From assembly GCA_016186425.1 (NCBI GenBank), contig JACPLR010000027.1, forward strand, positions 1 through 52,289: a stretch of 52,289 bases of DNA, in the 5' to 3' direction. The notes below the pieces were generated by a model. The model saw nothing but the letters and a program-made list of their open reading frames with translations. It searched no databases and was not told the origin of the DNA. The position numbers were made by a program, and so were the translations under genes. This stretch comes from Candidatus Pacearchaeota archaeon. GTDB taxonomy: Archaea > Nanobdellota > Nanobdellia > Pacearchaeales > GW2011-AR1. This document shows positions 1,307 through 52,289 of the stretch, piece after piece; positions within the stretch are counted from its first letter, which is position 1, and every line of letters starts with the position of its first letter.

Positions 1307-3571
1307 TTATTCTTCCCCATCCTTCGGCTTTATCTCAACATCTTTCAATCCACTTGGAGTTATTAAGAAAATAGTTTCATTATCCGGAAGATTAGGAGAA
1401 TCAATTAGTTTTGCAACTCTTGAATCTTTCTTTCCTCTTCTTAAATAAACTCTGTAAGTTGAAGCGTGCCCCACTATATTCCCACCAATAGCTGTTGTAG
1501 GATCCCCAAACATCATTGCAGGATTTGCCATAACCTGATTTGTAACAAATATTGCAATGTTTCTCTGCTCTGCAAGCTTCATTAAATCATGCAAATACTT
1601 ATTCAGCCTCTGCTGCCGATCAGCAAGCATTCCTCTTCCAGAATACTCTGCTCTGAAATGTGCTGTAAGAGAATCAACAATAACAAGTCTTATAGGCTCG
1701 CCATTTTTAACCATTTCATTAATTTTTTCAATTAACAAGATCTGATGGTCTGAATTGTGGCAGCACACTCCACCTACTCCTCCTAAAAAATTCTGGAATG
1801 GCACGTCTTTAGAAAATACTTCAAAATCATAAACTCTTTCTTCCATATTAGTAATTTTCTTTTCTATAGATTTTATTTCGGCAAAAACAAGATCCTCCCA
1901 AACCGGGGCATTTAAATCTTGAGTTACGTTTTCCAGATTTAAAATATTGTTGGAAGAAAGTCCTGCTGCCTCAACTCTATAATGCTTATTCCAATAATCC
2001 TTAAAATCATCTCTTGTATCTAATTTAATCTCAAAAATAGAAGAAAGAATGCCGAACCTTAATAAAGTCATAGAAACATCATTAGCCAACTCCTTACTTG
2101 AAGTATGAAAAATTAATCTTCTCTTTCTATTACTCTCTGCATGATAACCGTCTCCGTCCCAATATCCTTTTATAAAGTGTTTCAATTTTCCGAGCGGAAG
2201 TTGCATTATCCATTCTGGTATCTCTCTTTCAGGGGATTTTTTTTCAACATCAATTTTTAATATATATTTTAAAATTAAAGCGAATAATCTGCTAGAAATA
2301 AGAAGAGTATAATATTTTTCATAAAGATGAGAATTCAAATTAAACTTTTTTTTAATAATGTCTTGTGCTTTTTTCAAATGTTCTATCTCCGAAGATAACC
2401 TAATTCTTACTGCCCTCTCTTTATATTGGCTATTGCCTTCTGCTATAATAAATCCCATAAGCCAAAGCAACTCTTCATCAACAATAATTGCCTCCGGAAA
2501 GATCGGGGCATTTATTTTTCCAGTATGGGCTAACCTTACACCTTTATTAATTATTAATTCAGATCGCACTTCTTTTGGAAATTTATTTATCAACTTGCTT
2601 ATGTCATATTTATTAATCTCATTCTCAATCATAGGAAGAAATCTAGGTATTGTTATATAATCTCCGATTCTCAATGAAGAAGCTTCTGCTGCCTCAGGAT
2701 ACATATTACCTCTTTCTCGTCTAACTGTAAGTTTTCCTTTTTTGCCCTTTCTAACTCCCTTAAATAAAGAATGAGCTCCTGTAACAGTTATTTCCCTTCC
2801 GAATTTTGTCTTAAATGTATAAAATTCTTCTCCTTTTGGAATATAATGGGAAACAAAATTAGTGATAATAGTGGGCTTCATTTTTCCAGTATTTGGCTCA
2901 AAAGAAAAAGTAAGAACTTTATTATCTTTTCGGTTATTTACAACCTCAGAAATACTTTCTTTATGAAATTCATTATCATTTAAAATGTATACTTTTTCTG
3001 AAGCGGGTAAACTATTAAAAGCTCTTGCAACAAAAATATTTTTCAAAACTTTTTCAGGATTTGCGCCTATTCCTTCTGCATACTGCCTAACTCTTTCAGG
3101 CCTAAATGTACCTTCAGTGTCAATATAAACCGCTTTTCCATTTGCCCCTCCTTTCTCTTTAGGAACCTGCACATTTACAGCAAGTGAAAGAGCTAACTGT
3201 GTTTTTCCCGAGCCAAACGCTCCAAAAACTTCTGTAATTGACTTGCTCTCAACCCCTTTTCCACCCAATAGATTGTCTATATTCTTGCTTCCAGTTGTAA
3301 TAAAATTAATATCCTCTCTTTTTTTAGCATACTCGCTGGCATCCATAAAACCAAGATCAAGCATTTTTCTGGAAGCTTGTATTGCTTTTCTTGCAACAGC
3401 CTCTCCAACTCCAGACAGCTCTGAAAGTGCTGGCGGAGATAATACAGCAATACCCATTAAATCATAAATTCCTGCAGCCTCAAGCTTTGCAACAGCTGCC
3501 GGCCCTATTCCAGGCAAGTCACTAAGTTTCTTCCCTTCTTCAGAATCATTAGATTTATCCTCTTTAGCCAT
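1307..3571 (-). CDS. radA: DNA repair and recombination protein RadA, interrupted by an intein
   Basis: RadA is the archaeal Rad51/RecA homologue: it forms ATP-dependent filaments on single-stranded DNA for strand exchange. The 754-residue precursor contains an N-terminal helix-hairpin-helix domain (about residues 18-60, LPGIGPAAVAKL), Walker A GAFGSGKTQ (117-125), then an intein (187-606), then Walker B LVIVD (631-635) and the rest of the core. Removing the intein leaves 334 residues, the normal length of archaeal RadA. The extein junction is ARAFN/SDHQ, a conserved stretch of the ATPase core, so splicing must be needed for function. A TATA box (TTTATAAAG) sits 28 nt upstream of the ATG, suggesting a leaderless transcript. 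Three hypothetical genes follow closely in the same direction. Confidence 0.97.
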   Translation of the reverse strand: MAKEDKSNDSEEGKKLSDLPGIGPAAVAKLEAAGIYDLMGIAVLSPPALSELSGVGEAVARKAIQASRKMLDLGFMDASEYAKKREDINFITTGSKNIDNLLGGKGVESKSITEVFGAFGSGKTQLALSLAVNVQVPKEKGGANGKAVYIDTEGTFRPERVRQYAEGIGANPEKVLKNIFVARAFNSLPASEKVYILNDNEFHKESISEVVNNRKDNKVLTFSFEPNTGKMKPTIITNFVSHYIPKGEEFYTFKTKFGREITVTGAHSLFKGVRKGKKGKLTVRRERGNMYPEAAEASSLRIGDYITIPRFLPMIENEINKYDISKLINKFPKEVRSELIINKGVRLAHTGKINAPIFPEAIIVDEELLWLMGFIIAEGNSQYKERAVRIRLSSEIEHLKKAQDIIKKKFNLNSHLYEKYYTLLISSRLFALILKYILKIDVEKKSPEREIPEWIMQLPLGKLKHFIKGYWDGDGYHAESNRKRRLIFHTSSKELANDVSMTLLRFGILSSIFEIKLDTRDDFKDYWNKHYRVEAAGLSSNNILNLENVTQDLNAPVWEDLVFAEIKSIEKKITNMEERVYDFEVFSKDVPFQNFLGGVGGVCCHNSDHQILLIEKINEMVKNGEPIRLVIVDSLTAHFRAEYSGRGMLADRQQRLNKYLHDLMKLAEQRNIAIFVTNQVMANPAMMFGDPTTAIGGNIVGHASTYRVYLRRGKKDSRVAKLIDSPNLPDNETIFLITPSGLKDVEIKPKDGEE
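1754..3013 (-). other. RadA intein with LAGLIDADG homing endonuclease (420 residues)
   Basis: In-frame insertion at RadA residues 187-606. It starts with Ser (SLPASEKVYI) and ends with His-Asn (GVCCHN), followed by Ser as the +1 extein residue: the residues needed for protein splicing. Block B is seen as VTGAHSLF, with T264 and H267 of the TxxH motif. Block F is VYDFEV followed by FQNFLGG. The endonuclease has both dodecapeptides, LMGFIIAEG near residues 371-379 and FIKGYWDGDG near 466-475, so both acidic catalytic positions appear intact. It is therefore a full-length rather than mini intein and may still be mobile. Confidence 0.95.
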
Positions 3572-41663: not shown

Positions 41664-42479
41664 TCAACCAATTACCTCCTCAACAACTTTCGCTCCCAGT
41701 TTAACACAGTTGTTGTTTATATCCCTTTCTGTATTTATCTCAGTAACATCAATAACTCTTAAACTCCTTAATAAATTCAGCCTTTGCAAAAAATAAATAA
41801 GCTGCCTTGCAGTCAAGCCAGCCGCTTCAGGTCTTGCAACTCCCGGAACAAAAATACTATCAACAACATCTATATCAACAGAAATATACAGTTGGTTATC
41901 TTTATCAGCATTAGCCAATTCCATAATGATATCGCACATTTCTTCGATATCAATTAAGTCTTTCATATTGTAAACCCTCACATTATTCTCTTTCAAAAAA
42001 GCATTTTCTTCATCGCTGCTTTTTCTCATTCCAATTATAATTATTTTATTATTCGGAAAACCTTCTTCTATAAGTTTTCTCAGCCAGTTTCTGCTATTAA
42101 CAGCATATTCACTTAAAATATTCTCTTCACAATCAGGATGAGCATCAAACACAATTAAAAATGCCTCTTTATTTTCACTCTTGCACATATCACTAAAAGC
42201 TTTAACATTTGAATAACTCATTGAATGATCTCCTCCCAGAAATATAACTCTTTCATTATTCCCAATTTCTTCAAGCGAATTTTCATAAATCATGGCGTGT
42301 GCTTTAGGAAGATCGCTATTATCTAAATGAATTTCCTCTAATCTAAGATCCTTTTTCTCAATCTTCCTTCCATTTTCAGTTGTAATTACCTTTGGTAGTT
42401 CTGCAATTATAGCATTTCCACTTGCTCTGCATCCTCTGCTTTCAGGCAAACTTTCAATCGGAACTTTTATCAGCATCAT
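41664..42479 (-). CDS. Ureohydrolase (agmatinase/arginase family)
   Basis: 271 residues. Mn-dependent hydrolase that would release urea from agmatine, arginine or a related guanidino compound. All six metal ligands are visible: H85 in GGDHS, D112, H114 and D116 in DAHPD, D202 and D204 in SVDIDVVD. The normal GTGTPEPGG loop reads GVARPEAAG, so the substrate is uncertain. The first in-frame codon is a TTG at 42491, but the TATA box (CTATAAAAACC) is 26 nt before the ATG at 42479, which I prefer. It could feed polyamine synthesis. Its 3' end touches the repeat at 41474-41660. Confidence 0.9.
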   Translation of the reverse strand: MMLIKVPIESLPESRGCRASGNAIIAELPKVITTENGRKIEKKDLRLEEIHLDNSDLPKAHAMIYENSLEEIGNNERVIFLGGDHSMSYSNVKAFSDMCKSENKEAFLIVFDAHPDCEENILSEYAVNSRNWLRKLIEEGFPNNKIIIIGMRKSSDEENAFLKENNVRVYNMKDLIDIEEMCDIIMELANADKDNQLYISVDIDVVDSIFVPGVARPEAAGLTARQLIYFLQRLNLLRSLRVIDVTEINTERDINNNCVKLGAKVVEEVIG

Positions 42480-42828
42480 TTTCAAAATCAAAGAAAAGAG
42501 GTTTTTATAGTTTTATTTAATAATAGAACTATCTATAAACTCAATATAAGTAATCATTAAACTATACAAATTTTTCATGATATTAATTCAAGAATAAAAA
42601 CCACCGGCGAGGTTTCTATGCATCCTGCAACCATGATGAAATACTGCAATATTTTTCCATAATTTTTATGCCAGGTATAGTAAGTTTTAGGTTATCTGCC
42701 TAGAATTATCATCTCCAACTACTTCTCAGATTTGATCTACTTGTCTTCGAACTTTAAAATATTCTAAAATTAAAATAAAAAAATAACCTCTTTATTTTAT
42801 TTAAATTAATAAATCTTTAAATTCCTTA
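42480..42828. repeat. Gene-free gap with a diverged core repeat
   Basis: Promoter of the ureohydrolase at the left end. A diverged core occupies about 42586-42690 (ATTCAAGAATAAAAACCA at its start; TTTTTCCATAATTTTTATGC and AGTAAGTTTTAGG at its end), interrupted by a GC-richer insert of about 50 bases including CCACCGGCGAGG. No gene is apparent. Confidence 0.5.
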
Positions 42829-46774: not shown

Positions 46775-47209
46775 ATGATAAAAATAAGAAAGGCCGTAAT
46801 CAAAGACATTAGTAAATTATTAGCTATTGGAAGACAGATAAAGGAATTTAAAATTGATTCAAAAAGGCCTGGTTTTTGGAGTAAAAAGCAATTAGAAAGA
46901 TGGATTAAATCAAAGTCAGATGTAATTTTGATTGCTGAAGAAAACAAAAATATAATTGGCTTTGTCTTTTTTGCACATCACGTTCCAACAGGAAAAGTTA
47001 TCTTTGAAAATGCCTGGATTCATCCAAAATATCGTGGTACCGGGATTATTAATATCTTAACAAAAGAGGGGGTAAAACAATTAAAATCAAAAAAGGCTAA
47101 TGATCTATGTTCTTTTGTTGAAATAAAAAATGTTAGATCTAGGTTATTTTTAGAAAAGAATAAATTTAAGAGAGGATTAAGTTTCATATGGATGTATAAG
47201 GAGATATAG
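46775..47209 (+). CDS. GNAT-family N-acetyltransferase
   Basis: 144 residues with the GNAT fold: N-terminal IKIRKAVIKDISKLLAIGRQ, central strands VILIAEENKNIIGFVFFA, motif A AWIHPKYRGTGI, where the YRGTG loop binds acetyl-CoA, and a final LEKNKFKRGLSFIWMYK. The substrate is unknown. It ends one base before the ATG of the probable cyclodipeptide synthase, whose Shine-Dalgarno (AAGGAGATATAGG) lies inside its last codons, so the two are translated together and may act in one pathway. Confidence 0.85.
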   Translation: MIKIRKAVIKDISKLLAIGRQIKEFKIDSKRPGFWSKKQLERWIKSKSDVILIAEENKNIIGFVFFAHHVPTGKVIFENAWIHPKYRGTGIINILTKEGVKQLKSKKANDLCSFVEIKNVRSRLFLEKNKFKRGLSFIWMYKEI

Positions 47210-47210
47210 G

Positions 47211-47939
47211 ATGATAAGAAAAAATCAATTTTATGATGTAAATAAGATGCCTCAGCAAGAAGGCTTGATTATATTTGGGATTTCTATGAATAGAATTGGA
47301 AATGTACAAAGCGCTAAAAAATGCTTTGATTATATGAATAATTTTATACCAAAGATATTCTACCCTGTAGTAGGATTGATTTTCATATATGCTGATTCTT
47401 TATATCTTTATTCTGATGAAAAGGCAAGTATCTTAAAAAAAAGATTTCAAAATCTAATCCATAGTCATAAAAATGAATTTATCAAAATTCTGAGAAAACA
47501 CCCTTCTCGAATTCCCAAAGCGTTTTCATATTTATCTTGGAATCAATTAATCCTAGAAACAAAAGAGTTTTTCAATTATTTTGGGAAATTACAAAAAATT
47601 TACAAAGAAGACAAAAAATTTCAAGAGTACGTTAATCAAGATATCGGCAAAAGTAAGCCTGCACCAAACGAGATTGATTTTATTTTGGAAGAGATATTAA
47701 TTTTTTATTTAATAGCTAAAGGAAAAGTTAGACTTTATAACGATTATGTACAAGATAAACAAAAATGGATTTTACAATGTTATCCTGGAAAGCCATTATT
47801 ATCTGAGATTTACTTATTTCAAGAAAATTTCTTTAGATTATCTAATCCCTCCAATGTTTATGAAAATTCTTTCTACGACTTGAAAGATAAGAAACTCTAT
47901 GACTATAAAAAAATTAATTTAAGCAATTTTGTTATTTAA
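47211..47939 (+). CDS. Probable tRNA-dependent cyclodipeptide synthase, XYP type
   Basis: 242 residues. Cyclodipeptide synthases take two aminoacyl-tRNAs and make a diketopiperazine. Match to the AlbC pattern by eye: LIIFGISMNR carries the G-I-S with nucleophile Ser (S25); FIYADSLY is the following strand; FGKLQKIYKEDKKFQ resembles the Y-x-x-D/E-x-x-F helix; DFILEEILIF matches the Y-V-L-x-E-x-P-x-F helix with E161 kept and Tyr replaced by F157; ILQCYP gives Y191-P192, the Y-P pair that defines the XYP subfamily, and the third residue after the Ser is not Asn, as expected for X. It is coupled to a GNAT gene that might modify the product. Divergent, so a search is needed. Confidence 0.65.
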   Translation: MIRKNQFYDVNKMPQQEGLIIFGISMNRIGNVQSAKKCFDYMNNFIPKIFYPVVGLIFIYADSLYLYSDEKASILKKRFQNLIHSHKNEFIKILRKHPSRIPKAFSYLSWNQLILETKEFFNYFGKLQKIYKEDKKFQEYVNQDIGKSKPAPNEIDFILEEILIFYLIAKGKVRLYNDYVQDKQKWILQCYPGKPLLSEIYLFQENFFRLSNPSNVYENSFYDLKDKKLYDYKKINLSNFVI

Positions 47940-51479: not shown

Positions 51480-52289
51480 TTATCTTGTAATAATCAGCTT
51501 ATCCATTTCTTCAAGCATTTTTTTAATTTTCGGCTGTGCAAAATGCTTCCGGGCAGGCTCTAAAATCTTGATTAATGCTTCAGCTACAGCATTTTTTAGG
51601 TCAGTTGGATGAAGCTTTCCTTGAGAAAAATCCTTTTCTAAGTCAGAGTAATTTTGATAAGAGACATCTCCGCCAAATTTCTTGTCTCTTTTTATTTCTA
51701 ATTTTTTATTTATTGGAAATACAATATATTTTGACCAGTCTAAAACCGGGTTAAATTCAATTTCTTTTTCAGGACAAAAAGCTTTTGCAAGCTTTCTTTT
51801 TATTTCATCGGGAGAATCATGAATAAACACTGCACTATCTGGTTTTGACTTGCTCATTTTCAAAGAAGACCATAGTTCCTGCATTTTATCTTTTGAAACA
51901 GGCCATACAGAAGGTTTGCTTAAACCTAAAAGCAAATGATGATGAACCGCAACAGGCTTGATTTGTCTGCCATGTCCGTCTAAAAGAGGCTTAAAGGTTA
52001 ATTTATTGGCAACCTCTCTTGCAACTACCTGGGCTTTTCTCTGATCAATGCCCGAATGTGGTAGATTAACTCCCTGAATAAAAATATCAGCAACTTGCAT
52101 TGGAGGATAGATTAATTTAGCAAAATCAACACTTTCCCCTTCTTCTCTTCCAAGAATAGTTATGCTTCTCAACATCCTTGCAAGAGTTGTATTTTTGCTT
52201 ATTTCAATTACAGTAGTCCAGTATAAATCATTATTATGATACAAATCACTTCCCAAAACAAATTTTAACTTTTCAGGGTTTCCGCCAAC
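51480..52289 (-). CDS. tyrS: Tyrosyl-tRNA synthetase, C-terminal part (runs off the window)
   Basis: 270 codons are visible and the frame stays open to the right edge, so the N-terminal part with the HIGH-like motif is outside. Present are the tail of the catalytic Rossmann domain (YPPMQVADIFIQGVNLPHSG; QRKAQVVARE) and the class I signature SSLKMSKSKPDSAVFIHD (KMSKS), then the archaeal/eukaryal-type C-terminal helical domain. The enzyme charges tRNA-Tyr. An in-frame TTG at 52256 is not the start because homologous sequence (reading GGNPEKLKFVLGSDLY) continues upstream. Confidence 0.93.
   Translation of the reverse strand, partial: VGGNPEKLKFVLGSDLYHNNDLYWTTVIEISKNTTLARMLRSITILGREEGESVDFAKLIYPPMQVADIFIQGVNLPHSGIDQRKAQVVAREVANKLTFKPLLDGHGRQIKPVAVHHHLLLGLSKPSVWPVSKDKMQELWSSLKMSKSKPDSAVFIHDSPDEIKRKLAKAFCPEKEIEFNPVLDWSKYIVFPINKKLEIKRDKKFGGDVSYQNYSDLEKDFSQGKLHPTDLKNAVAEALIKILEPARKHFAQPKIKKMLEEMDKLIITR

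Follow-up and report, generated by a model that had tools for sequence, protein, structure and literature searches.

The CDPS-like gene and its GNAT neighbor

The window, by which we mean the whole analyzed stretch of 52,289 nucleotides from a Candidatus Pacearchaeota archaeon, carries near its end a pair of co-directional genes, the second of which encodes a protein resembling cyclodipeptide synthases (CDPSs). The genes and their junction comprise the following features:

46775..47209, + strand: GNAT-fold protein, 144 aa (Pfam PF00583), the sole PF00583 match in the genome assembly
47198..47203, + strand: AAGGAG, a Shine-Dalgarno-like sequence of putative function within the final GNAT codons, 7 nt before the ATG of the next gene
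47211..47939, + strand: CDPS-like protein P0001, 242 aa (ORF 47211-47936 plus stop)

The GNAT open reading frame stops with TAG at 47209 and, after a single G, the ATG of the CDPS-like gene follows at 47211. Given this one-base gap and the AAGGAG inside the last GNAT codons, the two genes are probably co-translated. The GNAT protein itself matches PF00583 above the Pfam cut-off (E 1e-7). A first-pass annotation, made from the sequence alone, had described this junction and a GNAT neighbor and had proposed a probable XYP-type CDPS from the length of 242 aa, a G-I-S near the N-terminus, F157 and E161 in one helix, and a Cys-Tyr-Pro at 190-192. Junction, neighbor and residues are all as described there (TAG-G-ATG; G23-I24-S25, F157-I-L-E-E161, C190-Y191-P192).

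Elsewhere, the window encodes a RadA/Rad51 recombinase with an intein carrying a LAGLIDADG endonuclease domain (1307-3571, - strand) and, in what is a reduced archaeal genome, an arginase/ureohydrolase-family gene (41664-42491, - strand). A class I (W/Y-type) tRNA synthetase gene (51480-52256, - strand) lies 3.5 kb from the CDPS-like gene; the loci read gave no sign that this closeness is conserved.

Profile and structure comparisons place the protein with CDPSs

HMMER searches detected no CDPS match to the window protein in Pfam (PF16715) or NCBIfam at E values up to 1, and none among PDB sequences with either the single protein or a 14-row profile. The CDPS models of Pfam and NCBIfam also failed to match 14 or 26 members of its family, PF16715 had zero matches in the whole source genome, and HMMER searches of PADLOC, Pfam, NCBIfam and the PDB with single protein or profile returned chance-level matches only. 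TIGR01210 weakly matched five family members (best E 8.9e-5).

Profile-profile comparison gave a different picture. With hhalign, the alignment of 26 family members matched 16-18 Pfam-positive CDPSs, gathered from DPANN and Patescibacteria, with an E value of 7.6e-7, of 1.7e-7 in a second alignment, and of 1.6e-7 with ParcuCDPS (residues 10-226 as template), whereas the best of 100 controls, either shuffled by column or reversed, reached an E value of 0.034. When the family HMM was run against 595 ORFs, the strongest matches outside the family were all PF16715 proteins (top E 2.3e-6). The Patescibacteria protein L049 matches XYP CDPS structures (5OCD, E 2.8e-9) and is a bridge between the divergent family and ordinary CDPSs. 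Judged by the profile-profile E value of 1.6e-7, the absent PF16715 and NCBIfam match is a sensitivity limit and not a functional feature. The first-pass annotation had held that its idea would fall if a profile search gave no CDPS hit; HMMER and Pfam indeed gave none, and the idea was rescued by the profile-profile and structure comparisons.

An AlphaFold model of the window protein, built from 14 family members, reached a pLDDT of 86.9 and a pTM of 0.87. In a Foldseek search against the PDB, ranks 1-39 were all CDPS chains, NYH and XYP alike (E 1.1e-5 to 1.5e-3, probability 1.00, TM 0.46-0.64), and class Ic tyrosyl-tRNA synthetases came next. The family's other half was represented by a model of L040 (about 32% identical), which reached a pLDDT of 91.0 and whose 38 matches at E<0.001 were all CDPSs (best 1.8e-6). 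In these models, the protein has a class Ic aaRS-like Rossmann fold that is nearest to solved CDPSs. The CDPS fold proposed at first reading is thus the best match of two independent models, and the Foldseek ranking, CDPSs and then class Ic synthetases, is the opposite of the missing Rossmann fold that had been named as grounds for abandoning the proposal. The Rossmann-fold core is common to the family and to class Ic tyrosyl-tRNA synthetases, but the family is shorter (242 aa), lacks an anticodon-binding domain and matches CDPSs better. The missing HMMER matches in Pfam, NCBIfam and the PDB would fit a protein with no CDPS kinship, in which the motifs arose by chance from a K/I/F/Y-rich composition; this is hardly credible, as it is contradicted by two independent structure searches and by the profile-profile comparison with its shuffled controls.

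Conservation of the predicted active site

The predicted functional elements of the protein map to the window as follows:

47283..47285, + strand: codon of S25, the predicted nucleophile; invariant in 26 homologues, aligned with ParcuCDPS S26 and corresponding to AlbC S37
47394..47396, + strand: codon of D62, counterpart of ParcuCDPS D58 (IADSI versus YADSL)
47424..47495, + strand: long basic helix of the AlphaFold model, residues 72-95; a predicted tRNA-contact surface
47679..47693, + strand: F157-I-L-E-E161, counterpart of AlbC Y178-x3-E182 and ParcuCDPS Y167-x3-E171
47781..47789, + strand: Y191-P192-G193, counterpart of Y202-P203 of XYP enzymes

One of the nearest characterized relatives is ParcuCDPS from Parcubacteria bacterium RAAC4_OD1_1 (PDB 7QAT/7QAW), an XYP-subfamily enzyme that makes cyclo(His-Pro) and cyclo(His-Glu) and whose host, a bacterium, also has a tiny genome (PMC7613923). 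Its active site consists of S26, D58, Y167, E171 and Y191, of which D58 is essential, and its Y167F variant still makes product at a lower yield (PMC7613923). The hhalign alignment pairs S25, D62, W110, F157, E161, Y191 and P192 with S26, D58, a tryptophan, Y167, E171, Y191 and the next proline of ParcuCDPS, so that all four positions singled out for alignment at first reading (S25, F157, E161, Y191) fall on active-site residues of that enzyme. As ParcuCDPS Y167F keeps some activity, F157 is no objection to a CDPS.

S25, E161 and Y191 are invariant over 26 homologues, and position 157 is always aromatic (F in 25, Y in one), which goes beyond a chance match of motifs. Invariant columns further include K48, Y60, H86, E160, G193, Y201 and Y222. 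P192 is a proline in 20 of the 26 and is replaced in the other six. Position 62 is an aspartate in 14 of the 16 sequences that make up the window's half of the family, and N, S or T in the other half. The helix region (columns 70-97) has a mean charge of +0.146 per residue in the 26-member alignment, compared with +0.020 elsewhere, and the two most positively charged segments are the helix 72-95 and residues 120-133. Between close pairs, dN/dS is about 0.03-0.15, and by these sequence comparisons the CDPS-like gene is under strong purifying selection.

A divergent subfamily outside the described CDPSs

Sequence and model comparisons together identify the family as a very divergent relative of CDPSs, with about 10-18% identity, that forms a new, unannotated subfamily. 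With ParcuCDPS it has in common the Rossmann fold and, in one profile alignment, the catalytic S, D, (Y/F)xxxE and YP; it differs in its longer E161-Y191 loop and its C-terminus, has an identity of only about 14-18% and gives no HMMER-level match. Compared with the NYH enzymes AlbC (catalytic residues S37, Y178, E182, Y202), YvmC, Rv2275 and the S. haemolyticus CDPS, the family retains the fold and the catalytic Ser, (Tyr)xxxGlu and Tyr, but lacks counterparts of N40 and H203 and is 10-16% identical. The Pfam-positive CDPSs of DPANN and Patescibacteria (L044-L063) live in the same kinds of host, but are recognized by PF16715, whereas the family is not.

At position 28, which corresponds to the variable residue 40 of the XYP motif, members carry R, K, Q, H, L or S; Y191 is invariant, and the window copy has P192. 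In an unrooted tree, a branch with full support (100/99) separates the divergent family from the Pfam-positive CDPSs, and the nearest row to the family is the long-branched L049. A further group (89/80), made up mostly of NYH-type rows, excludes the family in this unrooted, long-branched tree. This separate grouping favors an attachment on the XYP side, although the long branches make it unsafe. Since P192 is replaced in 6 of 26 members and the long branches leave the tree placement unsafe, we describe the family as a new CDPS branch and not as an ordinary XYP member. The earlier label of a probable XYP-type CDPS thus stands as regards CDPS homology, active-site residues and the XYP-style motif, but not as regards subfamily: the protein lies far outside the described CDPSs.

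Distribution across DPANN archaea and Patescibacteria

The divergent family was found in 9 of 181 genomes from the source organism's family, in 15 of 371 from its phylum and in 3 of 380 from the phylum to which a Patescibacteria relative belongs. Seven named records carry it, comprising archaea (Pacearchaeota, Nanoarchaeales and 'Aenigmarchaeum') and bacteria (Falkowbacteria, Buchananbacteria, Moraniibacteriota and another Patescibacteria bin); the viral contigs searched held no relative. The 26-member alignment splits into two halves. Bacterial members are the nearest relatives of the window copy (64%), and in the family tree, whose starred branches force at least four changes between archaea and bacteria, it groups with the Falkowbacteria and Buchananbacteria copies (96/98). 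These sequence relationships suggest that the family has been exchanged across domains.

Misbinned archaeal contigs were considered as a source of the bacterial members and are unlikely in view of the genes next to them, as read from sequence and not from profiles: rpsB and tsf by the L080 copy, trmD by L091 and glutamate racemase by L090.

One genome, that of Nanoarchaeales archaeon DT_72 (G208), contains three copies of the divergent family (L018, L025, L026), and its two extra copies carry Y-S-G in place of Y-P-G. Ordinary Pfam-positive CDPSs of YH and YP types (L044-L069) are present as well: 13 of 371 genomes from the window's phylum and 5 of 380 from Patescibacteria carry them, and one genome (G816) has both kinds. 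The host is indeed a DPANN archaeon, but a CDPS there is less unexpected than the first-pass annotation supposed, given these 13 genomes and an archaeal XYP enzyme reported in 2018, the single metagenomic sequence AQS34941 (PMC5816076). The open-access literature yielded no account of the divergent family, of DPANN CDPSs taken as a group or of SET partners.

Exchangeable GNAT and SET partners

Orthologues of the GNAT gene lie directly upstream of, and co-directional with, the CDPS-like gene in the window, L071 and L074, and one lies convergent beside the Buchananbacteria copy L081. The four are 38-59% identical among themselves, so that the coupling to a GNAT gene proposed at first reading recurs at four loci in two domains. 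At four other loci the partner is a SET protein, which adjoins the family copy in L073, L079 and L091 and, in L080, is joined to it as an in-frame fusion. In this Patescibacteria fusion (L080:6717-7955), the SET-like domain is attached to the N-terminus of the CDPS-like protein. The SET parts of L073 and L080 are degenerate and below the Pfam cut-off, and are tied to the group by similarity to each other and to Pfam-positive SETs; two SET proteins lack the NHSC motif. The clearest exchange is between the L002 and L007 copies, which are 78% identical, yet have a GNAT in one case and a SET protein in the other at the same upstream place. The SET protein is the only PF00856 match in G204 and G307, as the GNAT is the only PF00583 match in the source genome, which makes chance adjacency very unlikely. 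These partners belong to the window's clade (GNAT at four loci, SET at four); they are not universal, the remaining loci having neither, and the loci read from the other half of the family show no recurrent partner.

A related GNAT gene overlaps an ordinary DPANN CDPS gene (PF16715) by ATGA in L058, and of the biosynthetic domains found close to bacterial CDPSs, N-acetyltransferases are one of the most frequent (PMC5767969). A GNAT subfamily dedicated to CDPSs was considered and rejected: L106, L107 and L108 hold close GNATs with no CDPS alongside, and these three stand-alone GNATs have similar scores. The acetyl-CoA motif reads RGTGII in the window GNAT and is degraded in L071, L074 and L058. 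In L074 (4322-7851), the GNAT and CDPS-like genes are flanked by two genes whose sequences resemble the subunits of a 2-oxoacid:ferredoxin oxidoreductase, which, on that sequence reading, could supply acyl-CoA; L112 has similar oxidoreductase subunit genes followed by two GNATs.

Amines are the typical substrates of GNAT and of SET enzymes. Together with the invariance of K48, this would suit a CDPS-like protein that is regulatory or has no catalytic role, such as a tRNA sensor, with the GNAT or SET partner modifying its lysines. We regard such a role as very improbable, because few positions in the family are as conserved as the nucleophile and the acid/base residues, and purifying selection is strong.

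Proposed reaction

We consider it likely that the protein belongs to a new, highly divergent CDPS subfamily and makes a cyclodipeptide from aminoacyl-tRNAs, and that the GNAT protein modifies the product. By analogy with AlbC and ParcuCDPS, the cyclodipeptide is probably made from two aminoacyl-tRNAs. These would bind via the basic helix, and the first amino acid would be transferred from its tRNA to S25 with the assistance of D62 and E161. The second aminoacyl-tRNA would then donate its amino acid to give a dipeptidyl-enzyme, from which Y191-assisted cyclization would release the cyclodipeptide. The probably co-translated GNAT, or a SET-domain protein in relatives, may modify the product, as gene order suggests. 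The conserved set of catalytic residues supports this ping-pong route, for which the known AlbC/ParcuCDPS mechanism is the model; F in place of Y at position 157, N, S or T in place of D62 in the other half of the family, and the non-strict P192 count against it.

An identity of 10-18% and moderate TM scores leave room for a CDPS homologue with a changed reaction, a transferase dependent on aminoacyl-tRNA in which the amino acid loaded on S25 is passed to another acceptor (a small molecule, an amine of a protein, or a linear peptide that the GNAT-fold partner extends) and no dipeptide is cyclized. Several features agree with this: the great divergence from all described CDPSs, the family-specific invariant residues K48, H86, G193, Y201 and Y222, and the loss of the second glycine of RGxG in three of five GNAT partners, which may therefore not be plain acetyltransferases. 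Predicted CDPS operons also contain GNAT-fold ligases (PMC2922099). We nevertheless hold a changed reaction to be rather unlikely, as the cyclization tyrosine Y191 is invariant and the full S, aromatic, E and Y set exceeds the needs of acyl transfer.

Possible products and implications

Within the preferred reading of a cyclodipeptide-forming enzyme, the family might be a third CDPS branch, exchanged between DPANN and Patescibacteria, that makes amine-bearing cyclodipeptides capped by GNAT or SET enzymes, as diffusible compounds aimed at hosts or neighbors; this extended proposal is speculative and, on balance, improbable. The usual substrates of both partner types make a free amine in the product an attractive guess. 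In this speculative proposal, the capped amine would belong to a side chain, such as that of lysine, and be acylated or methylated. A lysine-using CDPS would be new, since no CDPS characterized in the 2018 survey takes lysine (PMC5816076). That either a GNAT or a SET protein can accompany this enzyme offers a concrete, testable lead on the product chemistry.

The core idea of the first reading holds for both fold and active site, and the family is more unusual than it stated: invisible to present models, common to two groups of prokaryotes with tiny genomes, and equipped with exchangeable partners. CDPS catalogues rest on sequence models that are blind to this divergent family, and so they undercount the synthesis of small molecules from tRNA-bound amino acids in DPANN and Patescibacteria. 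With genomes of about 1 Mb and without most biosynthesis, these organisms keep, and exchange across domains, an enzyme that spends charged tRNA, which suggests that its product is useful to a dependent lifestyle.
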